Assembly: GCA_015143295.1 (NCBI GenBank)
Contig: CM026557.1
Span: forward strand, 29,731,760-29,795,759
DNA length: 64,000 bases
Reading direction: 5' to 3'
From: Tetracentron sinense
Lineage: Eukaryota; Streptophyta; Magnoliopsida; Trochodendrales; Trochodendraceae
Position 1 is the stretch's first letter. Every line of letters starts with the position of its first letter. The notes under the pieces were generated by a model. That model was not told the origin of the DNA, did no database searches, and saw nothing but the letters and a program-made list of their open reading frames with translations. Of this stretch, positions 1,744 through 59,009 are shown in pieces. The position numbers and the translations under genes were made by a program.

Positions 1744-1816
1744 GAATGGTGAATGGTGAATGGTGAATGGTGAATGGTGAATGGTGAATGGTGAATGGTG
1801 AATGGTGAATGGTGAA
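1744..1816. repeat. Heptamer microsatellite (GAATGGT)n
   Basis: About ten perfect copies of GAATGGT within the solo LTR. They produce long open frames in three phases of the opposite strand that are repeat artefacts. Confidence 0.93.
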
Positions 1817-2280: not shown

Positions 2281-2460
2281 ACAAGAACCAACATTTCACG
2301 AGGGGTCTCCCCTCACTCACAAGTGCATATCATGAAGAAGGGCCTCCCTTCCCTCGCAAGTACATACATATCATGAAGAAGGGTCTCCCTTCCCTCGCAA
2401 GTGCATTGCATAAAGAAGGGTCTCCCTTCCCTCTCAAGGCATCTCACAAGTGTATCTCAC
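2281..2460. repeat. Imperfect tandem repeat, about 30-35 bp, 4-5 units
   Basis: Units share AAGGGTCTCCCTTCCCTCGC and AAGTGCATA. They lie in the 3' half of the solo LTR. Confidence 0.8.
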
Positions 2461-5208: not shown

Positions 5209-5329
5209 TTATTAAAATGAGAGCATAAAGCTTTCTTGTGAGGCTTAAGTCTCACGCCTCGAGGTTTATGCTTCACGCATCTTGAGGTCCTAACACCTTG
5301 CTTCACACCTTCATGTTTTAAAAACATTG

Positions 5330-6826
5330 AACAACATAAGGGGGCTCTTTGTCAAGAGGAGAAGGTGCAGTAAAAGAACAGGAACAAAAAGACAATGGTG
5401 GGGTTTCAGCTTCGTCGTCAACCGCGTAGGATAGGATAACAAGAAAGGTAGTTCATCTCCTGAAAGCTATGCAATTCTCATTTGCCTTCAACGTAACATG
5501 CCGTCGAGTCAACAACACCCGGATGTGCTTGGCTAGGAGCACAATGGCCATGCAAAAGGTCATTTAGAGAACCTCCTAAGATTAGAGCCTACGGATTCGC
5601 CGAAAACTTCTTTGAAAATAGATAGTGAGTGGGACTAAAAAAGGAACGAAGACTATTTTTCAGCCTCAGCCTCCGCCTCCTCTTTCTGCTCATTATTAAG
5701 GTTTCCTCCATTAACCGCTCTAATCTCCCTTCTATAGATGCTGTAGAGAGAGAATTGTGGAAGAGCCTTCTTTAAATAGTTGAAGACAAATGGGTGAGAG
5801 AGAAGCATTGAGAGAGGGTGGAGATCACATAAGCATTTAAGAGAGAGACTGAAGCATTGGAACACTTCATGTAGTAATGAGAAAATAATTGTGTATGCTA
5901 TATAAGAAAAAAAATATCAAAAAGAAAATAAAAACGGATTAAATGTGGAGAGTGAGGAGAATCATGTCTTTAAATAGTAGAGATCCAAATAAAATATGGG
6001 AGGAGAATCGCCTATTTAAATGGTAGAGAACCAATAAAAAAAAAGGCAATCAATGAAAGACATGGAAATTCAATCTCAAATCTCATTAAATGGTGGAGAG
6101 TGGGGAATAACGTCTACTTAAATGGTAAAGAACTAAGTAAAAAAAGTTGTCCAAACATGAAAATTCAATCTCAAATCTCATACATTAAATGGTGAAGAGT
6201 GGACTAATAAACAAGGGGAAGTTAATGGGAGAGAAGAGATGAAAATGTGAAAAAATTATGGGTTCCATCGATTGACTTTAATTTAATGATGTGACCTCAC
6301 AAATGAGGAGTCCTACGTGGCATCAAGAGGAAGACAGGTGTCATCCATAGAAACACTCTAACTGTGTTATATAGTAGATGTATAGATATCTTTTCTTAGT
6401 CTGACTTATTTTAAAACCTTTAAAATCCAAGGTATTATCATCCAAAGTTCTAGTTTTTCCATTTAACCCCTCTTCAATATCACCCACTAATACCAATATA
6501 TGATCAAAATGAAAAATCTAGCACTTCGGAATTACTATGTTTCCCCTCAATAAGTCAAAAATAAATAAAATGAAAAGAAAAGAAAAAGAACTGAGCAGCT
6601 TACGAGCCCCATGCAACTGGCCAGGTTCAGATGACTGTTCAGGTCACTCAGATGTTAAGATTCTGCAGTGTCTAGACTAATGTTACCAAAACATGCACCA
6701 AGGCTTCTCCAGTGCAGGAGAATACAGGTCTAGTGCTGAATTCGTAAAAGATAAGAAAATTTGAAACTACCAAACAAATAAATAAATACAGAAAAAAGAT
6801 ATTTGTGACACAATATTGAAAATAAC
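5330..6826. other. Non-coding DNA left of SAC3C exon 6
   Basis: No gene recognised. 5935-6200 holds about three imperfect copies of an 85-100-bp unit (AAATGGTAGAGAACCAA, GAAATTCAATCTCAAATCTC). A short minus-strand frame near 5490-5560 ending in a stop resembles nothing I know. If SAC3C continues leftward this is intron 6. Confidence 0.6.
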
Positions 6827-6923
6827 CTCATTGATATAAGGATCCAAAAGGCAGTACTGCAGATGAGACGCCTCTGTGGCAGTAGTATTAAGGAAACACT
6901 TATAATTTCCTATTCGGAAGAAT
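6827..6923 (-). CDS. SAC3C: SAC3C exon 6, last exon visible
   Basis: 97 bases; acceptor AACAG, donor GAG/GTTATT. It completes the split Arg codon and reads [11 protein letters not shown], then [17 protein letters not shown], ending in phase 0. Intron 5 is 167 bases. The next family block (about 80 residues, with an INN/PYPL region) was looked for in 1-6826 on this strand and not found, so the following intron runs at least 6.8 kb or the remaining exons lie outside the window. Confidence 0.9.
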
Positions 6924-9900
6924 CTGTTACAAAAATGAAATTGGAAAATCTCTCAGCCTAGCTGAAACCCAAAATTAAAGTAGAAGCAACAAAACTGATC
7001 AATTCTAAACATTCCACCTTAAATGGATGCATATATAGAAAGAAAACAGTTGAAAGATTTAAATAGGATCTCAAAGAACTTTAAAGTTACCTTAAAATTC
7101 TCCGAGCAAAGCACATTTCTTTTGACTTAATAATGGGAGAAGCCACAGCTGCCATACGGCGAAACCACAAAGCAAGTGTCTCACCCTGTAGATCAAAGTT
7201 ATAGCAATATGTAGTAATGACCCAGCCTAAGGGTGCAAGTCACAATAAACAAAATGAGCAAACCAAAAACGCAGCAATGAAGCCAGATATTAACCGTTGA
7301 CTGGCTGTTAGAAACGAGATGAAGAAGCACATAAAACGAATGGAACTCAGCTTCATTCTCATTAATGTTGAACCTTCGATTGGCATCGTACAAGCCATAA
7401 AGAGATGCAAGGGATTTGGTAAGCTGCTCCATATTGAGGTAACGCACAGAAGAAATATTTGGATTGCCAGTACACTTGAGAAGCTTGTGGTGGGAAATGA
7501 TATGAAATTTAACCTGTCTGATGAAACATATCAGTAATTGTCCCATAACATGTACCTTGTAACTGTTTCCATTGCTTGAACTTTATGCAAGTATGCAGCA
7601 CAAAGTATGACTACCAAACTGCATGCTTCCTATATGTGTTATATGAAAAGGAAAAAAAAATCATTTGCACAGGCATGCAGCTTCATGTGGGTCTCAACAG
7701 CAAGGGATGCAACAAATAGACAAATGGTAGTTGCTTTTCCCTGCAACTATGGTGGTTTCAACACAACCACTGCAAAGACGTAGACCATGGAGTGATTGAT
7801 CTCATTCAAAGGCCACTACTATTATTTGTTGGCAATTGTTTTGAAGAAAAGACAGAAAGAAGAGAAGAAGCTAAATTGATTGGAATTGTATTCGTTGTAC
7901 AATGTCTTCACAAAGATGAACCAACTTATCATTTATTTTTATAAACTTGATAGTTAGAGATTAACTTCTTCTAGTTGCAAAATAGATTGTTATCTAGACG
8001 TGCACACGGTGAATGGAATTCCACATGGTGTAACGTTTGATATGATGTCTATTTTAAGATCTTTCACAAATATAGACACCGCCACTATGAGTACTTTCGC
8101 GATACAACTAAAACGAGTTGCACAAATATAATGTTTAGTATATAGTCTCTGTTACTAAAGGATGGCATATTTAGTAATCTAAAGTTTCATCAGGAACAAA
8201 GATACAGGAAGAAAAAAATATTATCCACATGATCCAATATGGCAAGCTAAACCCACTGACATTCACTTATCTGCAAATATATATGAATGTGGTGAATATT
8301 TATTTATTCCAGATACCAAAGGCGGGGGATATTTTCTGTGCTGCAACCTTGTCGTGGGTTTGTTCAGACCTTGTACCGAGGACAATCATATTAGGAAAAA
8401 ATAAATCTCATCAAAGCAGTGTTACCTAGGCACTTCAGTTTTCCCCAAATTTTGTCATTTTGACACCTTGGCACGACACGACACTCCTTGGTACGTGCCT
8501 ATACCGTGCCATGGTCATGTCAACATTATGATTAGGTATGTATGTGATGCTTCAAGTATGCCATGTCATTTTAACATATATATATATATATATATATATT
8601 GGATTGTTAGGAAATTTTTGTCATGTTGTGTACTTTTTCCCGACAACATAGAGGAAAACTTCCTAAGAGAGCAGCGCCGCCAACAATGATCAATAGGTAC
8701 GTCTTTCTCTCTCTCTCTCCTCTATATTCTCTATATGACTGTTCTTTTATAACTTTTGTTTATACTTTAAAAAAATATGAGGGACAGATGGTTCCCCCTC
8801 TCTCTATTCCTATTGTCTTTTAAAAAAATCTAAAGGTACCGTATTGGGATTTTCAGAGCTTGTTGTGCTGTACACCTCTAGACACCTGGACACTTAGCAC
8901 CCGTACCACGTGCCTAGGTAACATTGCATAAAAGATACTTAGAAGTAAATCTATGGTTTTATTACTCTGAAGACAGATCTTAAGCATTGTTTATAAATTA
9001 CATGGAGGTAAAACTATGCTCCTGTGAATATACACTATTAAGTGAAAATGGATTTCCATGTTTCCAACTGGAGCACTCTCTAGCTCGTGAAAATATATAA
9101 AGGATGTAATACTTATGTTGGCCTGCATTGAGAAACCGGTCTCAGATATACATCAAAAACATGTAGGGTACAACACATAACTAGCCACCTCAAGAACTTG
9201 ACTCAAGGTAACAGCTTGGAAGTCAGTTATGCTTGAGAATCACTAGAGTCAACTAGTAGAGCCATGTCATTTTCATTTTTTCATTTCTAAAAATAACTGG
9301 GAAGGCTTGGATGATGATGTTAAAAATAGCAGGAAGTAAAATATATGGCATGGTTGAGCCTTTTCCTAAAGTTCGTCTTATCAAAACAAAAGATCTACAA
9401 CTCAAAAGCCACAATATAAGTCACTTCTAATATATGAATTATCAAATATCAGTCCAAGAAATTTTCTGTAAATTTAAGCACACCAAATATGTATATAAGA
9501 AAATTTTATGGCATGAAAAACAAAAGAAAACGAGATGGGTGAGAAGAGAAAACAGATATAGAAAGATGGAAAATGAAAAGGAGTCGCATAACTATGATTC
9601 TTGGTATCAATAGGACAAAAAAGATTGTCTTTCACCAGCCCAAAAGTAGTGATATCATCTTTGCGATGCAATGCCCAATGAAATCAGCATTTCAACTCAG
9701 TTTCAAGTGAAGTTATTTATCATTCTGTGCCTTTTTATTTGCTTATAGAATTTGTTGATGTCAGGTGTAAACACCTAATTTTTGCACGGGCCTCCGCTTC
9801 TCCTCTGAATCTCCAGAAATCACCACCCTAAATACCCTATTTAGACCCCAGACCTCTTGCCTGAACCTAAGTACCTTTCCAAAGTCCCAAAACCCAAGCA

Positions 9901-12900
9901 AAATTGCGCAGCAGCCTGTTTTGGGGAAATTCCTTATCAGGAGGTACTGCCTCCACCCCTATGAAAAAATAATGAAATATGGGTTGGGCGGTGGAAGCCA
10001 TACCACCAGAGTAAAATCTTGCCATATTTGGTTGTATATGGACCAATTACTGCCAATTGGTGAACCGTACCAAAAGTCAGCCACCCAACACTATCATAGA
10101 CTTGTCTTACATGCAAGAGAGCAATTTCGGAATAGTACACCAGTGGGCGGTATAGGGTTCACCGACAAACTCAAAATTGAGGCACTTTGCAGTGGGTGGT
10201 AGGCCATATACCGTCACCTTGAAATAGTCTCACCTACCAACAGTTTCCCTCCTAGGAAACCTCTTTCTTGGACCAAAAACACCCCATTACCCAGAATTGT
10301 TCATGTGCATTAATCCCTTCATATGCCCAAGTGACTAATACACCCCCCAAGCCAAGTTTAGTCCCACATTGGAAATGTGAGGATTTCTCCCCCCTTTCCT
10401 ATCCTATAAATACGCCTCACCCCCAACCCATTTCTCCAACTTTGGATGCTCCAACCTTTGGAATCCTGGAAAGAAGCTTGAAGCTAAAAAAAAAAAATCT
10501 CTTGAGGAGCTAAGCCATAGCTAGGCTTACTCTGAGACCAATCTCGTCTTGTTCCAAATCCCCTTTCTTTAAACTCCTTCCAACCTTAGTCTTTCCATTC
10601 AAGCATTATCTTTCAATTATTTGCTTGTTTCATTCTTTACTTTCTAGTTATTTTCTTTACTTTCGAGTTCTTTGCTCTACTTGCTTCCTAGCTCTAGTTA
10701 TTTCCCTGCATCTTTGATAGAGCTTGGTTTAGTGGTAGAGGTCATACCCTTAGTAGTAGGATCCCCCTACGCTACTTTAAAGGATTGGTAGGAAGTAGGG
10801 ACCTTTACCCTTTTATTTTCCCCCTATCCCTCTTTATTTTACCTCAGTACTGCGGGGAGAATACAGACCAATAGGTGAGCCAATGGTCCCCAAAATGAAC
10901 ACAGTCCAAATTCCAAAACAGTCACTATTCGGAGCTATGTAGTGTTCGGATGGTATATGTAATGATCCGGAATTTTAATATAATAAACTTATGTGTTTAT
11001 GGGTCCTTAATGGAGGTTAATTAGTTAATTATTTGTTAAATTAATAAAAAGTGGATTTTGCTCGGGATTGAAGTGCACCGAGGAAATCTCAGTATCTTTT
11101 GGCGAAAATCGCGCACAGTGTGCCGGTCAACTGCCGGCACACACCCCCTACCGTATCGGTTCCGTCAGGTATCATTTCGCAAGACCGTGGGGCCATTATG
11201 TGTGATAAAATTGAGAAAAACGGGAAATTTTCATATTTCCAGAAATTAAGTGGGACCCAATATCTGTTGGAGATCCTAATAGAAATCCGTGCGGTTGGCA
11301 CTAATGCGTGTTGGTCGGCCGTGGGGACTAATGTCTGTCGTCTCGGCAGTTAGTTATCTCAAACGAAGAAACGGCGGTCTGTTTTGTATTCGAAATCAGG
11401 AAATTAGTGGGTTTTGCAGTTTTTGTCCAGACTTACTTTTGGCTGTCAAAACTCAGTATTTTTCCCTGAAATTTTTACAGCAGGTGTCAGACTATCCCAA
11501 GTTCAGTCACTTGAAGTTTCGTCATAATTGGGCATCATGAAGTAGGGTTTCAAAGGCCGTATACGCGAGAAAATACGGAAGAATAGTCAAATGGTCAACC
11601 CATTGACTTGGTCAACGGGACCATTAATGGTGGTCATGTGCATGGCACATGACCCTTGAATTATAAATAGGGAGCAGCCCCTTTTATTCTCACGGTTTTG
11701 CAACAGTGGGGGAGGTTCTGCCACAGCATGTTTTAGAGAGAGAAGGTGAGGAGAGAAAGGAAGAGAGAGAAAGGGAGGTCCCCTTGGGGTTTTTCGACGT
11801 CCCCGACGCGTTGCGGCGTTTGATTTTCTCTCCGGCTTCTCATTTGGCGTGTAGAGAGAGAAAGTGGAGAGAGAAAGTTGCATGCGCTCTACCTTGAGGT
11901 TGATCATCCTTCCGAGCGCGTTGGCGGTGTCCGTTTCGGCTCTAGATGCCTCGAAATGCGTGAAGCAGGTAAAACCCCTCTTTTCTTCTCTTTTTCCCTT
12001 ATTTTGCTATATTCTTTTATCTGAAGTATATGCATGTCTTTTGACGTGAATGAAAAAGGGTCGGAGACCCCTATGTGATGTTGTGATTTTATGTGGTCCA
12101 TCGGGGAGCCCAGATCGGGTCCCGGGTAAATTGTATCGCCACTCTATCGTGACAAAAAGTTGTTTTGCATGTCGTGTAAGACTATGAAGACATCCATTAG
12201 CCTGAAAACGTTCCCTAACGGGATGGTGTGTTACCGGAGTTGGTTCACGAGCGCGAGGCCCAAGTATTTCAGTTAATCAAGCGAAGCTTGGGTTAACTGG
12301 GGTTAACCTGTGGTTAGAAAATCTAACCAGGGTTAAGTATAATCCGTGGTTCCTCTTTGACTAGGTCAGAAGAGACGGTGTCCATTAAGCCCTAGGGTTC
12401 CTCCGTGACTCGGGGTTCCTCCGTGACTGATAGTCGGGAGATGTCGGAGTCCTAGGGAGTTTAAAGTGGCTGAACATCAGATAGTGTATAGTCCGGGGTT
12501 CCTTTCTGGGTGGGTCAGAAGATGTCGCCACCGTGTCTATCGGGGTCCCTTCTTGGTGGAACGCCAGGAGATGACAACATTGGCAAAGATGTCGGGGTTC
12601 CTCCGTAGACTAGCCAGAAGATGACGGTAGGCAGGTTGGTCGGGGTTCCTTCATGACTGATGCCCAGGGCGATGGCGGCGAATACACGGTAGATGTGGCC
12701 AGTCAATTGAATGGAAAAGTATGTCCTTATTGGGCGAATGCCCATGTTGTGTGTATAAGCTTCGGATACGAAGTGGTCTGAGTCGGTATACTCAGGGTTG
12801 GTGTATTTGTCTGAGTTGGTAGACTCATGGTTCGGTATGGAATCGTCGGATTCCAGGTGAGTTGGGTTGGTATACCCAAGGTTTGATCGTGTTCGGGTGA

Positions 12901-15900
12901 AAGCCGGAACAACGTGTGTGAGTCTAAATGACTCAATGTATTATGGCTAGGATTTAGAGACTTTAAGCCGAACATTTGTGGGCTGTGACCAATTAATAGA
13001 GTCTCAGGACTCGAAATGAAACATGATTGATGATCGAAACGATAATTTGGTAATATAATTCATTCATAACTGAACCTCATAATTGGAAAGTAATGTGAAG
13101 TCGGGAACCTCTGTTAGGGTGACGTAAACCTAAGTGACCTTGGGTCACAATTTATTATATACTGTTCTATTTTACTATAACATGCAAATTGAACTGTTTA
13201 TTATATCATTATTGATGCGTGTTATTATGTGGAAAATAGTTTAGAAGGATTGTGGTTTTATTGGGCTTCATAGCTCACTGACTTTTTATGTCAGCAGATC
13301 TTGGAGCTGCTGAGCAGTAAGTGAAAAGTCCAACTGGACATTTTGGAAGCTTGTACAAGTTGTACCCGGAGTGATAGAGGCGCCTACTTTTGTAAAACAA
13401 ACTTGATGTAAATAATACAAGTATATGGTTTGTATAATGGCTATTGTGATGACAGGTGTTATTTGCTTTTTGGAAGCATATGATAAATGTTTAAATTTCC
13501 CGTATTTTCGCGGGTAAAGTCTTCCGCTTGCATGATTTGACGAACGGACACGCGTCTTGGAACTTGATTCCCTAGGCGCGGGTTCGGGGCGTCACAATTG
13601 GTATCAGAGCCTACGAGCAATAACCATCATAACAAACCATACTTGTTCATGAAATACCGTAGTACATGATTTTTAGTTGTATAGCTAGATGTATTACTGT
13701 ACATCACCTATTTCGAAATCAGATAGTGATATGGAAATTGTGTGTATGTGCAGGGATGCCGTTAATGCACAGAGTCCCCACCAAGGAGGATTGGCAGCAT
13801 TATAAGCGGATGACAGCCATATTGAGTCGCCGTTATCCAGAGTGGCTTGGGATGACTCAACGAATCATGGCGGCCATTAAGCCGAAGGCTGTCCGGATAA
13901 ATCCGGGCGGAACTGCCTGGATGCCACCCCCGACTCCGATGAAACATGCAGTACCAGCTCGGGTACGTCGTGAGATTTTAAGGCAGGTTAAGCGGGCACT
14001 AGCAGACATCAGGCCTAGTCCGGATGGGACTGGTTGGATACCTCCACCCCTATCATCTAAGAGGCTTACGGCACGAGAGTATCGTGCGATTTTGAACAAT
14101 CGTAAGCAGAGTAAGAAGAAGTCGGTGGAGGCGAGTAGTCCGTCTACCTCGACTGAGGTTTAGATGCAGGAGTAGGGAGTCAGGAGGGGAGACGATAGCG
14201 TATCTGTATGGTTTTGGAGTATAGTAGATGCCCTAGGCGGTCTTCTTATCACTCGACTCATAGATTTTTGGTGTATATACTTGTACAGCGGATGTGATGT
14301 TTTGTATACTATGATGTAGTATGTTCATGTATATGGTGTGGTGTGCATATATTAAGAATGAAATGAATGAAATGTCTCTTTTTGGATATCGAATTCTCAG
14401 TGCATTTCAGTTTCATTTTATTATTAAAAGTTCGTTACTTTATAATTATAAGTGAATCATGCCACCTCGAACGAGCACCCGAGAATACCTTGGCCGGGGC
14501 ATTCGAGGCTATTACAGCCCTAGCCAACCTAATTCAGCAACAATAGGCCCAGAATATGAATGGAAATGGGAATGGTAGTCGTATCCCCATTGCTACCATG
14601 CCAGAGCATGGGAATGTGACCCGATTGGAGAAGTTTAAGAGGCTTGGACCGTCGGCCTTTTCGCGTACTACTGATCTGCTGAAGGCGGAGAACTGGATCA
14701 GAAGTCTGAAAAAAGTTTTTAGGGCTATGTCCTTGCCAGAAAATGACAAGCCCGAGTTCGCTATCTTTCTACTTGAAGGAGAAGCGGAACATTGGTGGAC
14801 CACAGTGGAAAGGCCAGTTCCACCGCATTAGAGGCCCGTGACTTGGGCAAAATTTACTGAATTGTTTTATGAGCGCTATTTTTCAGCGTCAATGAAAAAG
14901 AGGAAGGAGATAGAGTTTCTTCAGCTGACCCAAGGAAATATGTCGGTTAGCGAGTATGAACAAAAGTTTAATCAACTCTTGAGGTTCGCTGTGAGATTTG
15001 TCGAGGATGAGCAGTGGAGGGTTGAGAAATTTGAAGAAGGATTGAAGCCGGCTATCAGAGGGAAAATTGGCAGCTCAACGATTTACCTCATTCTCAGAGA
15101 TATTAGATAGAGCACTCAGAGTAGAGCGAGTGCATGAAGAACCGGCGCAGTCTAGTGCTGGCATAGGCAAAGGGACAGTTGGGAAGCCTTGGATAAAGGA
15201 GAATAACTGGCAGTTTACTGGGAAAAGAAAGTTCCGAGGACATGAAAAGCCAATGGTCTACAGGAAGATTGGGGCTTAAGTGCGAGAAATGTGGTCAGGG
15301 CCATTTGACCAAGGACTTTAGAGCGAAGGTTTGCTTCCAGTGCGGAAAGCCTGGACACTTCAAGAAGGATTGCCCTAGGGCTCAACCACTACCGTTGGAA
15401 GGCGGAAAAGGAAGAGTGTTTGCAATTACCTAGGAAGAGGCATAGCAGACCGAAGGTGTCATCGAAGGTAAACTTTTAGTATTTCAAGTACCTACTTATG
15501 CTTTGATTGACACTGGTGCTACACATTCGTTTGTCTCTACTCGTTTTGCTAAACACATAAGTTACAAGCCTGATACACTCAAAAGCATGATGTCTATATC
15601 TACACCATCAGGGAAAGTTCTGTGCACAAAAACAGTCTATGATAGGTGTCCCATACTTGTCAATAGTGTACGGATGTTAGTAGATTTGATCGTGTTAGAT
15701 ATGAAGGATTATGATGTTATCCTAGGGATGGATTGATTGGCTAATTATCATGTAGTGGTAGATTGTAATGCCAAGAAAGTGATATTTCGAATTCCGGACA
15801 TCCCAGAGTTCGAAATACAGGGGATTATCCGAGGTCAAGCACCCAAGCTAATATCAGCAATTAAAGCATGTCACCTTCTAGATAAGGGGTGTACTGGGTA

Positions 15901-36882: not shown

Positions 36883-36919
<37 letters not shown>

Positions 36920-51900: not shown

Positions 51901-54900
51901 ACCTTCTAGTTCTTCAATATCTAACTCTTTTAATGGTTCAACCCAGTGTTACTTAGGCATTTCAGTTTTTCCAAATTTTGTCGTGCCGACACTTGGACAC
52001 GACATTCCTTGGTACGTGCTTATACCATGTCATGATGACGTCAACATTATGATTAGGCACGTGATGCTTCAAGTATGTCGTGTCATTATAAAAATAGAAT
52101 TACTATGAACTTTTTGTCAAGTTGTGTTGCTTTTTCAGAAACATAGAAGAAATTTTATTAGGATAGCAGCGACAACAACAACGATCAATATGTACATATC
52201 TCTCTTCTCTTTTTCCTCTCTCTTGTTGCTCATTTCAACTCCTTATATGAGTATTTTTTATAAGTTAGGTATATACATTTTTTAAAACAATGGGGACAGA
52301 TGATCACCCCTCTTCCTATTATTATTTAAAAATTTATGTTAATCATATATATATATATATATATATATATTTTAATCATTTTTTAAAATGTGTACGTCAG
52401 TGTCGCCGTATTGGGATTTTCAAAGCTTGTCGTGCTGAACACCTCTAGACACTTGGCACTTGTACAGTTGTACCACGTGCCCAGGTAAAACTGGTTCAAC
52501 CCCTTGATCATTAACAAATTGATCTTCCACAGTTTCTTCTTCATAATAGTGAATGTTCTTTGTAGGACACAACTGCATAATGCCCTGCTCCACCACACTT
52601 GTAGCATTTTGCTTCACTATCACGGCGTGGGGTACTATTCATAGGAGCCTTGCCCTTGTTATTATCTCCATCAAATGGCTTCGAGCTGCTGAATTTGTTG
52701 ATTAAAGGAGAGTTTGAAGTACTCACATTGCTACCGGGAGCATTAGAAGCATTTTGAGAGGTAGAGAATCCTCCAACTATGGCTCTAGTACACTTTAACG
52801 TTGAGTGCCTTAATTGGGCTTCAATCTTTAATAAGCTTCTTCAAGGCTTGTCAAGCGTACATAAGTTCCTTCTTAATTTCCATCTTCAAACCCATCCGAT
52901 ACCGCGATATAGCTTGTCGCTCATCTTCCGTTATCCGGCTACGAATGGTCAATTCATTGAATTTCTCCGTGTATTCCTCTGCACTAGAAGCTCTTTGCCG
53001 AAGTAGAAATAACTTCTCAAAGACGGGTTTTTTCATAATCAAGAGGAAGATACTTCTCTTTCAACTTCAATTTAATTTCCTCCCAATCATTGATAGGAAG
53101 GAGGATGACCGAGTCTATAGAGTCAATCCTCAATATTATGCCACCATATACGAGCTTGTCCCTTGAGTTTCATTTTCACAAAACGGACCCGTCGTTCTTC
53201 GGACATTTCGAACCAGTCAAAATAATCTTCCAAAGACATTAACCAATCTTGGAAGGCATGCGGATCTAGTTTTCCGAAGAAATCAGCAACTTCAACTTTA
53301 ACTCCTCTCGATCCATCATCAAATCGATCTCTATAATTATCGCGGCACTCCAAGAATTGATGGAAAATCCCTTGTGGAATTCTAGCTTCAACACGATGTC
53401 AAGGTTATCAATGCAAAGTAGAGTCATCGCAAATTGGAGTATGAGTTGTTGATGCTTTGGGCCGATTGTTCCTCGTGCCCTCACCAATCTATGTCTTCAA
53501 GCTCTTGAAAAACTTCATCAAAATTTGTGTCACCATTGTTGGGTTCTTGTTGAACTTCTTCCGACTGTTCCGGGAATATACGAGACCATAGAATGTCTAT
53601 ATGTTGAGAGAGTTGTTGCACATGTTGAACTAACTCCAAAATAAGTTCATCTCGCTGAGATTGCGTGAGTTTTAGATGCATTTGGTTGTCCACTTCGAGT
53701 AGACATCTTTCCACAAAATTGCCAAGAAGTCGGAACTTGCTTTGATACCAAAAATTGATGTAGTACGAAGAAAGAATAATGTTAGATTATAATAAAATGG
53801 ATTACGGAGTTTAATGAGAAATGAAATAAGGGGAAAGAGAAAAGAGAAGTAGAGTCTCACTACTTTTATGGATTACCTCGGGTTGTAGTCTCACCAACTT
53901 AGGCGTCCGAATATGGAGTCCCACCACCAATGTAAAGAGTCACACCTAGTAAAGAAGAACTTTTCATTCACTTCAATTCTGAGTATCTACATTGCCTTAA
54001 GGTCTTCTATTTATAGGCATTCATAGAACATTCCACATAAATGTTAAGACATTAAATGATTTATAGTTTCTAGGACCAACTAAGACTCTTGGACTTTCTA
54101 GATAAGACTTTTGGACTTTCTAGACATCTAGACTCTTAAACTTTCTAGAAAATTCTTTCTTTAAACAAAGACTCTCCAGAAGAATGATTAATGAAAAAAT
54201 TTCCAGCAAGGATTTTTGACTTCTAGAAGAATCATTGGACTTATTTGTGGGACGGATATCCGCACCGACCCACTCGGAATTTTCCCTACGGAAACCAGGG
54301 TAAGTCAAGGAGTGGGAGTTAAACACACAACCATAGAGAGCAAACTCGGGACGCTAGCCAACTGCACCAACCCCTGGCGACACCAATTTTCAAGAAGATG
54401 GTGGTCCAAATACACCAAGACCCTTATCTTATGTGGATGTATAAACAATGAGAAAGATGTCTAGTTAAATTTGCAGTTTTTGGATCTGTGCGATAGGATT
54501 AAATTTTTTTTTTTTTTATCGGTAATCAATACATCAATATATATAAAGAGAAACGAGTATACAAAGAAGTTTACAATGAGTGAATCAAGGAAAGCAAAGC
54601 AAATAGAGCGAATACAACATGAAAAGAGAAAACATAGAAACCATAGCCAATGGCTCGACAACAAGGGACAGAGTGCCTCACAACAAGATAGCTCCCACTT
54701 CATCTCCCAAAGGAGTAATAGATGACCAATCCATAATCATGCGCCAAATAGGGCCAGTATGAGAGAATTAGGAGAAGAGAAATTGTCAAACGCGCGACAA
54801 TTTCGTTCCTTCCACACACTTCATGAGATAGCTTAGACCAAATCACTTTCTTAACCCCCACCATTGTCGTCAATTTCTAGCCTGATAAGAAATTCAGCAG

Positions 54901-57900
54901 GGAGGAAGGGAAGACCCACTCCACACCTAGTGAGGAAGAAGGCCCAAATCCCAAAGACAACCGGATAGTGCATGGTCAAGTGATCAACCGTCTCTTCCGA
55001 GGTCAGGCACAAAGAACAACGGTTTGCCAAATTCTACCCTCTACTCTTTAGATGATCAATGGTAAGAATCTTATTTAGTGCTGCAGCCCAGAGGAATAAA
55101 GATACATTTGATGGAACTCCTGTGAACCAAACAACCTTATGAGGAAATGAGTGCACTGGTAATCGGCCAAGTGACTGTAATAAAGATCTCTGATGCAGGG
55201 ACTTAACCAATACTCCACAAAAGCCGCGAATGATGGAAGCGTGAGATTAAATCCCTTTATCTTATAGCCCAGGCAACCCGGTCGAGACCTCCAAGTGGGT
55301 CCTACCCCGTGGGCCACCCCACCTCAGCGGGCCCCACCTCGTAGACCACCCCACCCCAGTGTGGAAATGCTCCTGCATCATCCACCCACACCGATGAGGA
55401 GACTTGAACCCGAGACCTGCTCGCATTTCCACACTGGGGTGGGGTGGCCTACGGGGTGGGCCCGCTGAGGTGGGGTAGCCCACGGAGTAGGACTCACTTG
55501 GAGGTCTCGACCGGGTTACCTGGGCTATAAGATAAAGGGATTTAATCTCACGCTCCCATCAGTCGCAGCTTTGTAAAGTATTAGTTAAGTCCCTGCATCA
55601 AATGGTATCAGAACAGGTCTTGGGTTCGAGTCTCCTCACCAGTGTGGATGGATGATGCAGAAGCATTTTCACACTGGGGTGGGGTGGCATACGGGGTGGG
55701 GCCCGCTGAGGTGGGGTGGCCCACGGGATAGGACCCACTTGGAGGTCTCGACCAGGTTGCATGGGCTATAAGACGATGCCATCAGTCGCGGCTTTTGTGG
55801 AGTATTGGTTAAGTCTCTGCATCACCATAACCTACAATCTCTAAGCTGAGGGATAACAGATGAGGAACTCAATCTCCTCAAGAAGAGTTGGAAATGTTTC
55901 CCTCCCAATCATTCAAATTGCGGCACAGGCGGGGGCACCACACGGACTCACTACCCACCCTCTCTACACAGTGAGAAACTAAGGCATCCTTGTTAAGGGC
56001 AAGGAGGAAGATGTACTGAAGTCATCCTCAAGTCTCAACGGACCACACCGTATATCTTTCCAAAAGAGGGTTTCAGACCCATTCCCGACTTTAAACCTAA
56101 TGTGAGGGTCGAGTAACTTAGCCACACTCATGATACCTTTCCAAATACCAACACCATGAGAACCCCACACCTCCTTAGGTTTCCAACAAAAGAGTTGTCC
56201 ATATGCAACAATGACCCTCCGCCACAAACTCTCACGCTCGACACCAAACCGCCAAACCCATTTTCTCAGGAGAGCCTTATTGATTTGACTAGTGGGAGCA
56301 AGGATGAAGCCCCCATCACAGAGGGGGGCACAGATGGAGTTCCATGCTACAAGGTGATATTTCTTTTTCTCACCAGAACCGCCCCAAAGAAAATTGCGCT
56401 GAAGACGGTCTAGGGTGAGGGTTATAGATTTGGGTATTGACAAGGTAGACATGAAGTAGGTCGGGAGATTGCTAAGAGTATTTTTGATGAGGGTCAACTT
56501 ACCTCCCTTGGAAAGGAAGGACGATTTCCAGCCCGCTAATCTGGAAGAAAAATTTTCAATAATTGGATTCCAGACTACTTTGGCTTTAAAAGAGGCACCT
56601 AGAGGAAGGCCCAGATAACTAGATGGAAGGGATCCTCACTTACAACCTAGACAACAAGCTAGCAAGTCAAGATTGGGTATCTCACCAACCTTGACAATTT
56701 CACATTTACCCAAATTCACCCTGAGACCCGAGACTACCTCAAAACACCGGAGCACACATCTAATATAAAGAAGCTGAGATGGACGAGTTTCACAAAAGAT
56801 TAAAGTATCATCACATGAGAAATACTTAGGTGCTCCTGACCAATTGAAAACTGTCGAAACCCACCCCATTCGCTTGGGATATCATCCGACTCAAAGCCTC
56901 TGACACGATGAGGAACAGAGTCTGGGAGAGCGGGTCCACTTGCCTTAGTCCTTTTGAGCTCCGGAAGAAACTTTTCGAGCTTCCATTCAGAAGAATAGAG
57001 AAGGAGGTAGAGGAGACACAAGCTAACATCCATTGTAACCATTTTGACCCAAATCCCATCCTACGCATCACATATTGGAGGAATTCTCAATTCACATTAT
57101 CGTAGGCTTTTTCTATATCAATTTTACAAACCAACCCTGGGATCTTTGACCTAAGACGCTTATCCACACATTCATTGGCTATAAGAATGTCGTCTAGTAT
57201 CTGTCTGCCACTAACAAAGGCCCCTTGTTGCAGGGATATGATTGAATCCAATACAAGTTGTAGGCGAGATGATAACATTGAAGCAATGATTTTGTACAAA
57301 CTGCTCACCAGACTTATTGGCCTAAAATTCCGGATGTCCTAAGCGCCAAGTTTTATCGAAATCAGCACCATAAATGTATTATTGATTGATCTGTCAAATT
57401 GGTTCGATTCATAGACTGCTTGCAAGACTGCAAGAAGGTCCAGACCCACAATGTCCCAACAAAAACAGTAGAACTCTATGTAAAACTCATCTGGCCTAGG
57501 AGATTTGTCTCCAGCCATTGCTCGAAGGGCTGACAACACTTCTTCACCCCTAAATGGTGTTTCTAACTCGTCTCGTTGTTCTACGGATAGAGTATCAAAT
57601 TAGAGGCCATCCAATGTTGGTCGCCACAGGATTAATTTAAGAAACACTTATCTAAAGACTAAACAGGTGTATTGAACGACAACGCTTATTGGAGAATTGA
57701 TTCTTGCAAAATCAATTGTCATCACAATAGACTATGGCTAAGAGAATCCAAACCAAAAAAGGCTTACTGTAATCCTAATTATCAGATTTACCGCTAAAAG
57801 AAGCCCCTAACAATATAATTAAGTTGTGAAGTCATACTGAAATGATGTAATAAATTTCTTTTCCTTTTTTAAAATGATATAATCTTGAAGAATGGTAAAT

Positions 57901-59009
57901 CTTTGAGAGAATTTTGTAGCACAACTAAAAAAATCCTGACCAAATACTGGAGCAAAAGCTTATGATTTACAGCCTTCGGTCCACAAAGCATTTAAAGCTT
58001 TTTTTTTCCCCACTTCGCATGCCATACTTACATTGAAACCCCTAATATATCACTCTTTGTAGAGTGTACACAAATGAGTTCCTTAGTTCTTTTGCTTAAG
58101 TTATGTATAGTTCATTTGTAAATTGGAGTTCTTATTCCTCTTAAATAAAAAGGGAATCTTTAGTTACAAAAGATGTTTCATAAAAGGTCAAAATTCTTTG
58201 GCACACAATTGTCATTCTGATCCATTGATTAGAGAGACCTCAACAATGAAAAAAATAATATATTTTGATTTAAATTTCAAACACTCTACTTCAACATAAA
58301 TAAATCAAAAGCACTGATTAATGGGGAAAAAACAAATAAAAATAGAAGGGAAAGAAAGAGAGATATTTTGGCATTCCCAGCCACCTCTTGAAAAAGATAA
58401 ATGTTAACTAACACGAATCAAAATAGCAGATTTTTTGCTATAACCCAAATCAGAGGTGCCCCAATATGCAAAAACGATTAAATGATTCTTCTAACAAAAT
58501 GGGTTTTGAATCGGAGTTGGCTTATGATGGACTGATATTCCAATTTTGAAAAGTATTAGTTGACGATGTGAGCACAATTTATACGATCCAGTCCAATAGA
58601 ATTTCAAAATCGCTCAACACCAACTTGTAATAATTCTTTCACTTGCATTTTAGCGAACATTCAAATACAAATTGGGTTATGATTCCATGTTAAGAAGAGG
58701 ATTTTGAAAAGAAAAAGAAGTTAAAATCAAAGAAAGAGAAGAAAAAAAAGTAAATTTACCTGGGCACATATGAAGGCAAGTTCCTACTAAGGATGGAAAA
58801 ATGGAGGAATCTTCGCTACTTTGGGATCTCAGATCGTGGGTATCGTCGACGTTAGTACCTTTATTTGAAACATGGGCGTTTTTCACGGGATTAGAAGGTC
58901 TATTATTCCGTCGAAAGCGTCTTGAGTCCCTAAAAGAGGAGGAGGAGGAGGAGGAGGAGGAGGAAGAAGAAAAAGAAGGATTTTTCGCTTTTCTGATGCT
59001 CTCCTCCAT
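6827..59009 (-). CDS. SAC3C: SAC3 family protein C gene, six exons in window, 3' end missing
   Basis: SAC3/GANP domain protein. Known relatives (yeast Sac3, animal GANP, plant SAC3A/B) scaffold the TREX-2 complex in mRNA export at nuclear pores; SAC3C is the short plant member and its exact role is less clear. Six exons join in frame: 59009-58760, 36409-36309, 25134-24919, 7513-7295, 7185-7091 and 6923-6827 (978 bases, 326 codons). Every intron begins GT and ends AG. Domain order is Ser-rich N terminus (about 1-70), GTCLHMCP entry motif, [83 protein letters not shown] and LDPYINE, the expected order for SAC3C. The Arabidopsis protein is about 400 residues, so roughly 80 C-terminal residues are absent from the window. 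No stop or frame break is seen in these exons. Introns 1-3 are packed with transposons. Exon joining is inferred from splice signals and family order, not from transcripts. Confidence 0.93.
7091..7185 (-). CDS. SAC3C: SAC3C exon 5
   Basis: 95 bases; acceptor CTACAG, donor AAG/GTAACT. It reads [18 protein letters not shown] then a [12 protein letters not shown] stretch, leaving two bases of an Arg codon. The intron before it is only 109 bases, the usual plant size, in contrast to introns 1-3. It matches the family block with LWFR and SKE motifs. Confidence 0.92.
7295..7513 (-). CDS. SAC3C: SAC3C exon 4
   Basis: 219 bases, 73 codons, phase 0 at both ends; acceptor GACAG, donor ACG/GTTAAT. It starts [14 protein letters not shown], continues through the [20 protein letters not shown] stretch and ends [14 protein letters not shown]. 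It follows exon 3 (EEM/VKFH) exactly as in the family. The 17.4-kb intron before it contains the Tekay-type retrotransposon. An opposite-strand frame over the same bases (7319-7537) is only a shadow. Confidence 0.93.
7514..8416. other. Intron 3 of SAC3C, proximal part
   Basis: AT-rich intron sequence next to exon 4; no element recognised. Confidence 0.6.
8417..8926. mobile_element. hAT-type MITE (family 2)
   Basis: 510 bp with ends CAGTGTTACCTAGGCAC and, in reverse, CAATGTTACCTAGGCAC. It is flanked by 8-bp duplications CATCAAAG and CATAAAAG (one mismatch). It contains a (TA)n run near 8577-8600. A second copy is at 51944-52493. No coding capacity. Confidence 0.88.
8927..9766. other. Intron 3 of SAC3C, no element recognised
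   Basis: Ordinary AT-rich intron sequence. The open frame at 9474-9671 on the minus strand has no recognisable content. Confidence 0.55.
9767..10957. mobile_element. LTR fragment, left part (TGTAAACACC family), split by Tekay-type insertion
   Basis: Begins TGTAAACACCTAATTTTTGC, close to the start of the solo LTR at 32494. It has a TATA-like CCTATAAATACGCC near 10403 at a position comparable to CCTATAAATACCCC in that LTR. Several short inverted repeats occur (e.g. ACCAATTACTGCCAATTGGT at 10038-10057). It continues after the nested element at 21573. Its right end is not defined. Confidence 0.55.
10958..13596 (+). repeat. 5' LTR of the Tekay-type element
   Basis: 2639 bp from TGTAATGATCCGG to GGGGCGTCACA. 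A TATA box (TTATAAATAG) lies at 11661-11670. The 12380-12660 stretch repeats GGGGTTCCTCCGTGAC motifs and is inverted in the other LTR. Confidence 0.93.
11661..11670 (+). promoter_or_regulatory. TATA box of 5' LTR
   Basis: TTATAAATAG about 700 bp into the LTR, followed by GC-rich leader and AGAGAGAGAAAG runs. The same box is at 19598-19607 in the 3' LTR. Confidence 0.6.
13599..13610 (+). promoter_or_regulatory. Primer binding site, initiator Met tRNA type
   Basis: TGGTATCAGAGC starts two bases after the 5' LTR, the usual Met-tRNA primer site of plant chromoviruses and copia elements. Confidence 0.92.
13756..14163 (+). CDS. Additional ORF between PBS and gag
   Basis: 135 codons from the ATG at 13756 (the frame is open from 13666). 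The product is basic and carries a duplicated motif: GTAWMPPP then ARVRREIL, and GTGWIPPP then AREYRAIL, about 40 residues apart. A splice-acceptor-like TGTGTATGTGCAG lies just before the ATG. It matches no gag or pol domain I know. Extra ORFs are known in some large plant Ty3/Gypsy elements, but I do not recognise this one. It is open throughout, unlike the gag-pol region. Confidence 0.6.
   Translation: MPLMHRVPTKEDWQHYKRMTAILSRRYPEWLGMTQRIMAAIKPKAVRINPGGTAWMPPPTPMKHAVPARVRREILRQVKRALADIRPSPDGTGWIPPPLSSKRLTAREYRAILNNRKQSKKKSVEASSPSTSTEV
14459..15433 (+). pseudogene. gag: gag region of Tekay-type element
   Basis: Retrotransposon gag domain ([30 protein letters not shown]) followed by a CCHC zinc knuckle ([14 protein letters not shown]) near 15330-15372. 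Structural protein for the particle. Part of a broken fossil. Confidence 0.88.
15434..18651 (+). pseudogene. pol: pol region: protease, RT, RNase H, integrase
   Basis: In order: aspartic protease ([11 protein letters not shown] near 15505), reverse transcriptase (CINYRLLNQ near 16210, [10 protein letters not shown] near 16510), RNase H ([11 protein letters not shown] near 16956) and integrase with HHCC zinc finger (about 17590-17730) and catalytic core (about 17790-18250). The integrase part is the longest uninterrupted stretch. Broken fossil overall. Confidence 0.9.
18470..18849 (+). pseudogene. Integrase C-terminal region and chromodomain
   Basis: [15 protein letters not shown] block with [19 protein letters not shown], then a chromodomain-like stretch ([15 protein letters not shown]). 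In chromoviruses this module guides integration to particular chromatin. Confidence 0.8.
18884..18896 (+). promoter_or_regulatory. Polypurine tract
   Basis: AAGGAGGGGAGA immediately before the 3' LTR, the plus-strand priming site. Confidence 0.85.
18898..21572 (+). repeat. 3' LTR of the Tekay-type element, with internal inversion
   Basis: 2675 bp from TGTAACGACCTGG to GGGGCGTCACA; TATA box at 19598-19607. About 20241-20580 runs in the opposite direction to its counterpart at about 12346-12606 of the 5' LTR; both sides outside this segment are collinear. The inverted part also holds an extra repeat module. Confidence 0.92.
21573..21919. mobile_element. Continuation of the split LTR fragment
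   Basis: Begins with the GTATA duplication and continues the sequence broken at 10957. It contains TATCGGTAATACTGACAG, reminiscent of the hairpin motifs in the related solo LTR. No coding sequence. Confidence 0.5.
21920..22405. mobile_element. hAT-type MITE (family 1)
   Basis: 486 bp with ends CAATGTTTTAAAACGTG and, in reverse, CAGTGTTTTAAAAAGC. The interior has GGCGTGAGGC arms and TA/GT microsatellites. Flanks share CTATTG on both sides, an imperfect trace of the target duplication. Confidence 0.83.
22467..23899. mobile_element. Non-autonomous TIR DNA element, possibly carrying a gene fragment
   Basis: Ends are GCCCGTTTGGCATCATTC at the left and its inverse (GAATGATGCCAAACGGGC) at the right. 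Inside are imperfect GAAACCCCAAAATTTGTTAAC-like repeats (23040-23330), an (AG)n run at 23556-23577 and, on the minus strand near 23648-23586, an exon-like start reading [19 protein letters not shown]. No transposase and no convincing target duplication, so the superfamily is open. Confidence 0.6.
23900..24918. other. Intron 3 of SAC3C, distal part
   Basis: AT-rich intron sequence up to the donor of exon 3; no element recognised. Confidence 0.55.
24919..25134 (-). CDS. SAC3C: SAC3C exon 3
   Basis: 216 bases, 72 codons, phase 0 at both ends; acceptor CACTAG, donor ATG/GTATGA. It begins FCRTIST, passes [20 protein letters not shown] and [17 protein letters not shown], and ends IHMFEEM. This is the core helical region of the SAC3/GANP domain. 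FCRTIST is followed directly by MQALDVRP, slightly shorter than I expect in relatives. The NCQAI stretch carries Cys where I would expect an acidic residue. Confidence 0.93.
25135..25466. other. Intron 2 of SAC3C, part nearest exon 3
   Basis: Contains the pyrimidine-rich acceptor tract of exon 3. No element recognised. Confidence 0.6.
25467..25688. mobile_element. Possible LTR start (TGTAAGCACCC family)
   Basis: TGTAAGCACCCAATTTTGCA near 25465 resembles the starts of the LTRs at 9767 and 32494. The rest is cut into by the foldback element and could not be followed. Confidence 0.35.
25689..26545. mobile_element. Foldback element with long inverted arms
   Basis: Arms start TCAGCTATTTGTAAATACCC and, in reverse, TCGGCTATTTGTAAATACCC, and are recognisable for about 270 bp each side (ACTAACTGTGGTTAAGAATC against its inverse). 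The centre carries a tandem duplication of about 150 bp (AGTCAACCTAAGGTTA). No coding capacity; no clear target duplication, perhaps because another element abuts its right end. Confidence 0.68.
26546..30247 (+). mobile_element. Decayed hAT transposon with DUF659-type transposase
   Basis: A transposase gene in the plus direction with a leader (about 26770-26930, ending at a donor-like CACCCAG/GTCAGT). The outer ends contain CCGAATTATT motifs at both sides (26543-26552 and about 30228-30240), probably remnants of its terminal repeats. Exact ends and target duplication are not clear. Confidence 0.65.
27791..29835 (+). pseudogene. hAT transposase, DUF659 type, broken
   Basis: Starts [19 protein letters not shown], the head of a BED zinc finger, after which the frame is shifted with a stop; it resumes as [20 protein letters not shown]. 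The DUF659 region follows (28391-28804: [34 protein letters not shown]), then [29 protein letters not shown] and the AAAYLNPYL block. The usual C-terminal dimerisation region with its WW and CERNWS motifs is missing between about 29385 and 29560. A C-terminal tail with [15 protein letters not shown]-like sequence and an acidic end remains. At least three stops or shifts make it a pseudogene. Confidence 0.82.
30248..30789. other. Unassigned repeat-like sequence between hAT transposon and copia fossil
   Basis: Contains repeated GGGTTCCATCAT and GATAA(C/T)CAT motifs (30600-30700) of the kind seen in LTRs, but no ends could be set. Confidence 0.4.
30850..32134 (+). pseudogene. pol: Copia reverse transcriptase and RNase H region
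   Basis: Copia RT hallmarks: [59 protein letters not shown]-type site near 31430, then [16 protein letters not shown] and the RNase H block [15 protein letters not shown]-like near 32025. Remaining RNase H and C-terminal sequence (LADIFTK, near 35628) is on the far side of the insertion. Fossil. Confidence 0.85.
32494..34817. mobile_element. Solo LTR (TGTAAGCACCC family), Ty3/Gypsy-like
   Basis: 2324 bp from TGTAAGCACCCTATTTTTGC to CCCACGCTCACA with exact 5-bp duplications ATTAT (32489-32493 and 34818-34822). TATA-like CCTATAAATACCCC at about 33041. The 3' part has GGGTATGTAGGCAGC, GGTGGCGACTCC and GTTCCTCCG-like stretches as in large plant Ty3/Gypsy LTRs. It contains a series of hairpin-forming repeats. 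No internal region remains. Confidence 0.88.
32751..34088. repeat. Series of short hairpin-forming inverted repeats in the solo LTR
   Basis: Inverted repeats at 32751-32782, 32851-32885 (weaker), 33604-33636, 33791-33825, 34010-34030 and 34052-34088. The best have stems like GAATGTTGGTA and TACCGACATTC around a 6-10-base loop. Stem sequence changes between copies while pairing is mostly kept. Confidence 0.7.
35467..35725 (+). pseudogene. Copia pol C-terminal remnant and polypurine tract
   Basis: RNase H tail with QLADIFTK-type motif near 35628, then the polypurine tract GAAGGGGAG just before TGTTGGTATATG of the 3' LTR. Fossil. Confidence 0.75.
35931..36308. other. Intron 2 of SAC3C, part next to exon 2
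   Basis: AT-rich intron sequence; no element recognised beyond the possible LTR tail. Confidence 0.5.
36309..36409 (-). CDS. SAC3C: SAC3C exon 2
   Basis: 101 bases between acceptor AAATAG and donor GTAAGT. With the single base left by exon 1 it reads 34 codons, starting [20 protein letters not shown] and ending SLAVKK, a strongly conserved SAC3 segment. It ends in phase 0. It lies 22.35 kb downstream of exon 1 and 11.2 kb upstream of exon 3. Being only 101 bases among transposons, it would be easy for gene finders to miss. Confidence 0.92.
36677..37207. mobile_element. hAT-type MITE (family 1)
   Basis: 531 bp, ends CAATGTTTTAAAACATG and (in reverse) CAGTGTTTTAAGC. Target duplications AGTCATAC and ATTCATAC (8 bp, one mismatch). 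Same interior as copies at 21920 and 39262, with (TA)n at 36898-36918. It lies 267 bases from SAC3C exon 2, in intron 1. Confidence 0.9.
37208..37584. other. Intron 1 of SAC3C, no element recognised
   Basis: Short AT-rich stretch between two hAT-type elements. Confidence 0.55.
37585..38939. mobile_element. Non-autonomous hAT-type element with an exon-like insert
   Basis: 1355 bp with ends CAAGGTTCAAAATATCG and, in reverse, CATGGTTCTGAATATTG. Exact 8-bp duplications AATTTAAG at 37577-37584 and 38940-38947. Inside, 38109-38230 is a dense set of TTATAAGTTATAA-type palindromes, and 38005-38049 looks like a first coding exon on the minus strand. No transposase. Confidence 0.88.
38005..38049 (-). 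pseudogene. Exon-like fragment inside the hAT-type element
   Basis: Reads 15 codons, [15 protein letters not shown], from an ATG in good context to a donor-like CAG/GTATGG followed by a pyrimidine-rich stretch. It looks like the first exon of a captured host gene; the source gene is not recognised. Confidence 0.4.
38940..39261. other. Intron 1 of SAC3C, no element recognised
   Basis: AT-rich intron sequence between two hAT-type insertions, including the AATTTAAG duplication at its left edge. Confidence 0.55.
39262..39787. mobile_element. hAT-type MITE (family 1)
   Basis: 526 bp, ends CAATGTTTTAAAACGTG and (in reverse) CATTGTTTTAAAAAGC. Duplications ATGGCACC and TTGGCACC (8 bp, one mismatch). 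Interior as in the other family-1 copies. Confidence 0.9.
39788..41689. other. Intron 1 of SAC3C, mostly unassigned
   Basis: AT-rich. About 40256-40380 starts CAATTGTTTAAAATATCGG and looks like a fragment of the family-3 hAT element. Around 40850 the reverse strand reads TGGTATCAGAATTATATG, a primer-site-like sequence without LTR context. No gene. Confidence 0.45.
41690..42661. mobile_element. Non-autonomous hAT-type element (family 3)
   Basis: 972 bp with ends CATGGTTTAAAATTCTGG and, in reverse, CATGGTTCAAAATACCGG. Exact 8-bp duplications ATCCTATT at 41682-41689 and 42662-42669. Both ends are rich in GATACGTATC-type motifs. The sister copy is at 45982-46848. No coding capacity. Confidence 0.9.
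42662..43526. other. Intron 1 of SAC3C, no element recognised
   Basis: Contains GAATTCGAATCTCT repeats around 42930-43020 but no recognisable gene. Confidence 0.5.
43527..43932 (-). repeat. 3' LTR of the minus-strand chromovirus
   Basis: 406 bp with ends TGATGTAGTACG and GTCTTCATCA. On the minus strand it directly follows a polypurine tract (reverse of ATTCCCCCCGTCATG, 43933-43947). It matches 53756 onward. Confidence 0.87.
44962..45750. mobile_element. Non-autonomous hAT-type element in the chromovirus
   Basis: 789 bp with ends CAAGGTTGTTAAATCG and, in reverse, CATGATTGTTAATTCC. Exact 8-bp duplications GTCCACAA at 44954-44961 and 45751-45758. Both ends are rich in AATCGAATCGTA-like motifs. 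No coding capacity. Confidence 0.9.
45982..46848. mobile_element. Non-autonomous hAT-type element (family 3) in the chromovirus
   Basis: 867 bp with ends CATGGTTTAAAATATCG and, in reverse, CACGGTTCAAAATGTCGG. Exact 8-bp duplications GTTTTGTC at 45974-45981 and 46849-46856. Sister of 41690-42661. Confidence 0.92.
48682..49248 (+). repeat. 5' LTR of the nested copia element
   Basis: 567 bp, TGTTGGAATTTTGG to CCTACATCA. TATA box CCTATAAATAGG near 48893. A short stretch at 48718-48790 is crowded with GGGCGATC/GATCGCCC palindromes and differs from the other LTR more than its surroundings do. Confidence 0.88.
49252..49263 (+). promoter_or_regulatory. Primer binding site of the nested copia element
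   Basis: TGGTATCAGAGC starts three bases after the 5' LTR, initiator Met tRNA type. Confidence 0.88.
49290..50692 (+). pseudogene. gag: Copia gag-side and protease-side region
   Basis: Starts [20 protein letters not shown], the copia gag head. Further on are [15 protein letters not shown]-type gag sequence (near 49745), a degraded CHC zinc-knuckle stretch (YHCKELGMS-like, near 49960) and a protease-side [11 protein letters not shown] motif (near 50128) followed by a GAG-pre-integrase-like region ([16 protein letters not shown], near 50305). Fossil. Confidence 0.8.
50989..51533 (+). repeat. 3' LTR of the nested copia element
   Basis: 545 bp, preceded by the polypurine tract AAGGTGGAGAT (50979-50989). 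TATA box CCTATAAATAGG near 51179. A few percent different from the 5' LTR by eye. Confidence 0.88.
51613..53714 (-). pseudogene. gag: gag and protease region of the minus-strand chromovirus
   Basis: From high to low: leader protein with [19 protein letters not shown] (near 53640), gag core ([19 protein letters not shown], near 53250; [19 protein letters not shown], near 52980), CCHC-like knuckle [10 protein letters not shown] (near 52610), and protease ([15 protein letters not shown], near 51780). The hAT MITE at 51944-52493 lies between knuckle and protease. Fossil. Confidence 0.83.
51944..52493. mobile_element. hAT-type MITE (family 2) in the chromovirus
   Basis: 550 bp, starts CAGTGTTACTTAGGCATTTC and ends GTGCCCAGGTAAAACTG. 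Exact 8-bp duplications GTTCAACC at 51936-51943 and 52494-52501. (TA)n at about 52347-52370. Sister of 8417-8926. Confidence 0.92.
53739..53750 (-). promoter_or_regulatory. Primer binding site of the minus-strand chromovirus
   Basis: Reverse strand reads TGGTATCAAAGC just after the 5' LTR, a one-base variant of the Met-tRNA site. Confidence 0.8.
53756..54251 (-). repeat. 5' LTR of the minus-strand chromovirus (outer end not intact)
   Basis: Begins TGATGTAGTACGAAG as in the LTR at 43527 and matches it up to CTTATTTGTGGG near 54251, after which the sequence is unrelated and SINE-like. Confidence 0.82.
54252..54385 (-). mobile_element. SINE-like sequence
   Basis: The reverse strand reads GGGGTTGGTGCAGTTGGC, close to a Pol III A box (TRGCNNAGYNGG), and about 35-40 bases on GTGTTTAACTCCC, close to a B box (GGTTCRANYCC), then a CTTACCCTGGTTTCC tail. 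The spacing suits a tRNA-derived SINE. It sits exactly where the chromovirus LTR breaks off. No flanking duplication found. Confidence 0.5.
54880..57600 (-). pseudogene. LINE ORF2 remnant: reverse transcriptase and zf-RVT region
   Basis: From high to low: RT start ([18 protein letters not shown], near 57530), [20 protein letters not shown] and [18 protein letters not shown] (57305-57180), [13 protein letters not shown] (near 57120), [15 protein letters not shown] (near 56935), the DD site region ([12 protein letters not shown], near 56810), [15 protein letters not shown] (near 56490) and [16 protein letters not shown] (near 56370). A zf-RVT-like region (ANRCSLC, near 55030) follows. Several shifts and stops interrupt it. 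Acts in target-primed reverse transcription in live elements. Confidence 0.85.
55193..55824. repeat. Inverted and direct cluster of three SINE-like units inside the LINE
   Basis: Both ends read TGATGCAG(G/A)GACTTAACCA inward. One unit runs reverse (55193 to about 55430) and two run forward (about 55430-55585 and 55585-55824), each with CACACTGGGGTGGGGTGG, GGAGGTCTCGACC and ATCAGTCGC blocks. The forward unit contains TGGTATCAGAAC and GGTTCGAGTCTCC, the latter a good Pol III B box. The arms could form a hairpin of over 200 bp. Confidence 0.6.
57628..58759. other. Intron 1 of SAC3C, part nearest exon 1
   Basis: AT-rich sequence with the donor of exon 1 at its right edge. No element recognised; there may be unrecognised repeats. 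Confidence 0.55.
58760..59009 (-). CDS. SAC3C: SAC3C exon 1 (start codon to MCP motif)
   Basis: Codons 1-83 plus one base. It starts [13 protein letters not shown], then a run of about 12 serines from a GAG/AAG-type microsatellite, then a basic patch ([11 protein letters not shown]), and ends at GTCLHMCP, the SAC3 domain entry. The start is chosen because an in-frame TGA lies 27 bases upstream of the ATG and the context (GCAATGG) is good for plants. The donor is CCCAG/GTAAAT, leaving phase 1, which the next exon completes to Asp. The family usually has MCPE here; this copy reads MCPD. Confidence 0.92.
58937..58977. repeat. Trinucleotide microsatellite coding for poly-Ser in SAC3C
   Basis: GAG/GAA repeats on the plus strand, read TCC/TCT/TTC-type on the minus strand and giving about 12 serines in exon 1. 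Confidence 0.9.

Follow-up and report, generated by a model that had tools for sequence, protein, structure and literature searches.

A putative SAC3C-like gene extended over 52 kb by transposon-filled introns in Tetracentron sinense

Six exons that together encode a SAC3 domain are spread over 52,183 nt of Tetracentron sinense contig CM026557.1, of which coding sequence accounts for 978 nt (<2%), most of the remainder lying in introns that contain transposable elements. All positions are given within the window, the whole 64,000-nt stretch that was analysed. The arrangement is very probably that of a normal plant SAC3/GANP gene, most likely the SAC3C orthologue, whose introns have grown by repeated transposon insertion and whose transcript would be spliced to encode a SAC3-domain protein. 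Three of the five introns within the window would have been enlarged in this manner, as would probably the sixth; transcription would pass through the elements, ordinary GT-AG splicing would join the exons, and the product would belong among the SAC3-domain proteins of TREX-2/mRNA export. SAC3-domain proteins are part of the TREX-2 mRNA-export complex.

The gene model lies on the minus strand, and its exons join into 326 codons in one open frame with no in-frame stops (Table 1). All five introns have GT..AG borders, exon phases are compatible at each join, and no exon is interrupted by a mobile element, all marked elements being situated between exons. The original prediction had described six exons totalling 978 bases over 52.2 kb, with three long introns of about 22.4, 11.2 and 17.4 kb and two of 109 and 167 bases; its coordinates, lengths, joins and intron sizes were all reproduced, and its statement that the joins keep frame and family order agrees with the open codons, the splice borders and the family match described below. 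Canonical splice sites together with a frame that stays open across every join are the pattern of a working gene with transposon-expanded introns, and on this basis the gene is likely functional. Counting against that reading are the donors of introns 4 (GTTAAT) and 6 (GTTATT), which we take to be weaker than the plant consensus.

Table 1. Exons and long introns of the gene, and the elements marked within those introns (positions within the window)
Feature	Location	Positions	Strand	Details
Exon 1		58760-59009	-	250 nt; begins at assumed start ATG; donor GTAAAT
Intron 1		36410-58759	-	22,350 nt; GT..AG
Exon 2		36309-36409	-	101 nt; tblastn match and joined frame
Intron 2		25135-36308	-	11,174 nt; GT..AG
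Exon 3		24919-25134	-	216 nt; tblastn match and joined frame
Intron 3		7514-24918	-	17,405 nt; GT..AG
Exon 4		7295-7513	-	219 nt; tblastn match and joined frame
Exon 5		7091-7185	-	95 nt; preceded by intron 4 (109 nt, GT..AG)
Exon 6		6827-6923	-	97 nt; preceded by intron 5 (167 nt, GT..AG); followed by donor GTTATT
LINE remains	intron 1	54854-57338	-	RVT_1 and zf-RVT pieces; sense to gene; split by fold-back element 55191-55824
Gypsy C (LTR element)	intron 1	43527-54178	-	sense to gene; LTRs 43527-43850 and 53756-54178; contains copia B
Copia B	intron 1	48682-51533	+	LTRs 567 and 545 nt; gag and Pol_BBD pieces
Non-autonomous inverted-repeat element	intron 1	45985-46848		between gypsy C LTRs; outer ends approximate
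Non-autonomous inverted-repeat element	intron 1	41719-42661		75-80% identical to 45985-46848; outer ends approximate
Short inverted-repeat element	intron 1	39262-39787	+	family of 21920-22405
Short inverted-repeat element	intron 1	36676-37196	+	family of 21920-22405
Copia reverse-transcriptase fragments	intron 2	30876-31540	+	PF07727; 3 overlapping or adjacent pieces
Putative hAT transposase fragment (DUF659)	intron 2	28370-28801	+	PF04937, E = 3.4e-35
Fold-back element	intron 2	25689-26545		arms ~250 nt
Short inverted-repeat element	intron 3	21920-22405	+	related copies 36676-37196 and 39262-39787
Gypsy A (Ty3/gypsy)	intron 3	10958-21572	+	10,615 nt; antisense to gene; LTRs 10958-13596 and 18898-21572

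Exons 2-6 are the five best tblastn matches (37.7-108 bits) to an approximate plant SAC3C-like query, and the best match in a reversed-window control reached 23.5 bits. Exon 1 is the weakest exon, as its own tblastn score is only 18.9 bits, which lies at noise level, and its start ATG is an assumption. It was accepted because its GTCLHMCP motif is in frame, adjoins the GT donor and aligns with human GANP, and because the GTCxxMCP pattern occurs a single time in the six-frame translation of the window; in the phmmer alignment, which starts at residue 73, the VGTCLxMCP motif of the exon is aligned with GANP. The low score of exon 1 taken alone, and the element-rich DNA that separates the exons, would also fit an origin by gene capture, in which exon fragments were carried by mobile elements, or a set of chance protein matches, neither of which would constitute one gene. 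Such an origin is extremely unlikely given six same-strand pieces that follow the order of the family, phases that agree and splice dinucleotides that are present at every join, a continuous Pfam match, and nothing above 23.5 bits in the reversed window; the open joined frame and this control were the grounds for rejecting both alternatives.

Searching the joined protein against Pfam resulted in a sole family, SAC3_GANP (PF03399), with E = 6e-64 and 216.6 bits against a curated cut-off of 27. The match runs through profile positions 1-239 of 289 as one continuous stretch, therefore no internal domain exon is missing. In the PDB, 12 distinct sequences were matched at E <= 0.001, their types being human GANP, yeast Sac3 and SAC3D1 (one is a fusion named also after its maltose-binding part), and the best match was human GANP at E = 1.1e-26, with an alignment covering residues 73 to 324. 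Judged by the profile score above the curated cut-off and by the matched human GANP and yeast Sac3 chains, the gene is a member of the SAC3/GANP family of mRNA export. Of the SAC3C-like label originally proposed, the family part is upheld and the SAC3C part is weaker: the matches to the approximate query and the short N-terminus suggest that the gene is most likely a SAC3C orthologue rather than SAC3A or SAC3B. Likeness to Arabidopsis SAC3C (At3g54380) and the PF03399 family consists of the SAC3 domain with its GTCxxMCP entry motif and of an exon content that corresponds; the span of >52 kb would set the present gene apart. PMC12856525 identifies At3g54380 as SAC3C of Arabidopsis and describes its binding to other TREX-2 parts as unconfirmed by the earlier work cited there. 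The same paper gives dwarfing for the sac3b sac3c double mutant and a more severe phenotype for the triple mutant sac3a sac3b sac3c. A search for relatives gave 1 pattern match in viral_contigs and 25 in genome_contigs, none of which was confirmed.

The last 50 profile positions of PF03399 and the C-terminus are absent from the six exons. Approximate C-terminal query sequences gave no convincing tblastn match to downstream exons in bases 1-7000. When 75 open pieces (>=25 aa) on the minus strand of bases 1-6826 were scanned against Pfam, none matched SAC3, and the three families that did appear were weak and unrelated (best E 0.0049). With a donor directly after exon 6 and no later exon in 1-6826 by these searches, the gene continues beyond base 1, and intron 6 is probably >6.8 kb long, provided that no short exon, which could escape both the tblastn and the Pfam scan, was overlooked.

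Turning to the introns, the marked spans, counted together with the DNA enclosed by each LTR pair, make up 67.7% of intron 1, 17.5% of intron 2 and 63.8% of intron 3, which leaves the greater part of intron 2 unassigned. Forty chosen open pieces were compared with Pfam; 21 had matches at E <= 0.01, 14 were above the curated cut-off, and 19 had no match. Whole retrotransposons, a LINE and over ten DNA elements had been expected inside the gene. The LINE was recovered as remains in intron 1, split by a fold-back element for which no target duplication was recognised, and about eight DNA elements, not more than ten, are defensible across the three long introns. As for the retrotransposons, their outline and structure are whole but their coding content is not, as that of gypsy A is in pieces and copia B has 1,740 nt between its LTRs. 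Gypsy C retains reverse transcriptase (RT) and RNase H pieces at 46980-48466, its protease-like and CCHC pieces are weak (Pfam E <= 0.01 yet below the curated cut-off), and no target duplication was recognised at its ends. Copia B lies between the protease-like piece and the RT pieces of gypsy C and is flanked by CATAT and CATTT, an imperfect target duplication. The DUF659 fragment in intron 2 is presumably of hAT origin, based on the link between DUF659 and hAT, and we take the short inverted-repeat element in intron 3 to be hAT-like. Also in intron 3, a segment of ~500 nt (8411-8921) would be a fragment of a gypsy C-related element, because it is 71-86% identical to 51938-52488 in the gypsy C interior.

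Gypsy A has LTRs of 2,639 and 2,675 nt, a 5-bp target duplication that is identical on both sides (GTATA, 10953-10957 and 21573-21577), and domains in the order gag, protease, RT, RNase H and integrase, although its coding part is in separate open pieces. The sequence TGGTATCAGAGC after the first LTR is, judged by its motif, presumably the primer site; with the LTR pair, the target duplication and the domain order, it places the element in Ty3/gypsy. Assemblies fail in repeat-rich stretches, and here one might have fused pieces from distant places or collapsed repeats within the introns; however, gypsy A has its exact duplication at both ends and that of copia B is almost exact, thus these two stretches are contiguous as inserted, and an assembly error is very improbable. 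Despite the perfect target duplication, the first and second LTR of gypsy A are distinguished by an inverted internal segment of ~300 nt (12343-12610 versus 20239-20487), which in the second LTR contains a 96-nt tandem duplication.

By the divergence between paired LTRs (K2P), gypsy C (0.096) is the oldest dated element, copia B has a value of 0.091, and two parts of gypsy A have 0.053 and 0.040, so that gypsy A was inserted later than the other two. The LTR pairs served as a neutral clock and provided the indel ratio (14 indels to 180 substitutions) for a simulation of exon decay in 20,000 runs per case, in which intact meant that the frame, the ATG and 10 splice dinucleotides were retained, the sixth donor being excluded. 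At the LTR rate, half of it and a quarter of it, the gene was intact in 1.15%, 10.5% and 32.2% of runs since the gypsy C insertion, in 1.3%, 11.9% and 34.0% since copia B, and in 11.4%, 33.1% and 58.1% since the youngest element, gypsy A. These figures bear on whether the gene is a recently silenced pseudogene, that is, a former SAC3C copy (e.g., one of two after genome duplication) that has been gathering transposons and in which damage is not yet visible. The heavy transposon load would accord with this, as would the chance survival of the open frame at the two lower rates since gypsy C; nevertheless, a silenced copy is unlikely in view of 978 nt without a stop or frameshift, GT..AG in five of five introns, and survival by chance in only ~1% of cases at the LTR rate over the same interval. 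Silenced or methylated LTRs may mutate faster than exons, and because this is probably so for silenced LTRs the test is not decisive for selection; within the window, it modestly favours a gene maintained by selection. The original view that the gene looks functional is thereby backed by the open frame and the splice sites, with modest support from neutral decay, and stops short of proof. For the favoured reading of a normal gene with expanded introns, we infer that it would be transcribed and spliced, and that its protein would function.

Comparable systems have been described in other plants. In PMC3058033, grapevine introns >3 kb are mostly repeats, with LTR elements and LINEs among them as in the large introns here, and large introns split genes in annotation, with 99 of 188 checked clusters matching several consecutive annotated genes; the original expectation that standard annotation would probably split the present gene corresponds to this documented error. 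The grapevine introns differ in being EST-supported and dominated by copia, whereas gypsy elements occupy the most bases here. LTR elements in introns likewise underlie the long genes of magnoliids and Chloranthus spicatus; in C. spicatus, 876 of 2,184 orthologues exceed 20 kb, mostly in this way, whereas rice has 2 of that length and Arabidopsis has none (PMC8626473). In rice, ~11% of genes have heterochromatic introns, and transcription through them needs factors such as OsIBM2 (PMC7145194); these rice genes are working genes with transposons in their introns, as the present one is likely to be. There is a small chance that the gene relies on IBM2/EDM2-type read-through of heterochromatic introns, in which case the output of an mRNA-export factor would be set by silencing of its own intronic transposons and might change under stress or genome shock. 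The finding is true but ordinary, as transposon-swollen introns and the annotation errors resulting from them are already in print (PMC3058033, PMC8626473, PMC7145194), and the general view is unchanged; its use is as a worked example on which gene finders can be tested and transcription across transposon-rich introns can be studied. A literature search, limited to the papers it matched, found none on SAC3C intron length.

The claim that nearly every element in the window lies inside the three long introns was too strong, as repeats are also present in 1-6826 and 59010-64000. At 3195-5342, a nested insertion is seen in which one member of the 500-nt inverted-repeat family, lying on the minus strand, is apparently split by a fold-back element at ~3789-5215. 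On the other side of the gene, ~100 nt upstream of the start codon, 59111-59340 has a tRNA-like head (GTAGCTTAGCGGTCGAAGG..., the resemblance being judged by eye) and an A-rich end; it may be a SINE that lies within the promoter or the 5' UTR, and no clear target duplication was seen around it. The window contains no Rfam family of structured RNA at gathering score and no tRNA gene in a scan run with the bacterial setting. Short tandem arrays of similar motifs, CACTATTCAC and GTGAATAGTG, flank the gene on both sides, at 889-1321 and 61172-61216.
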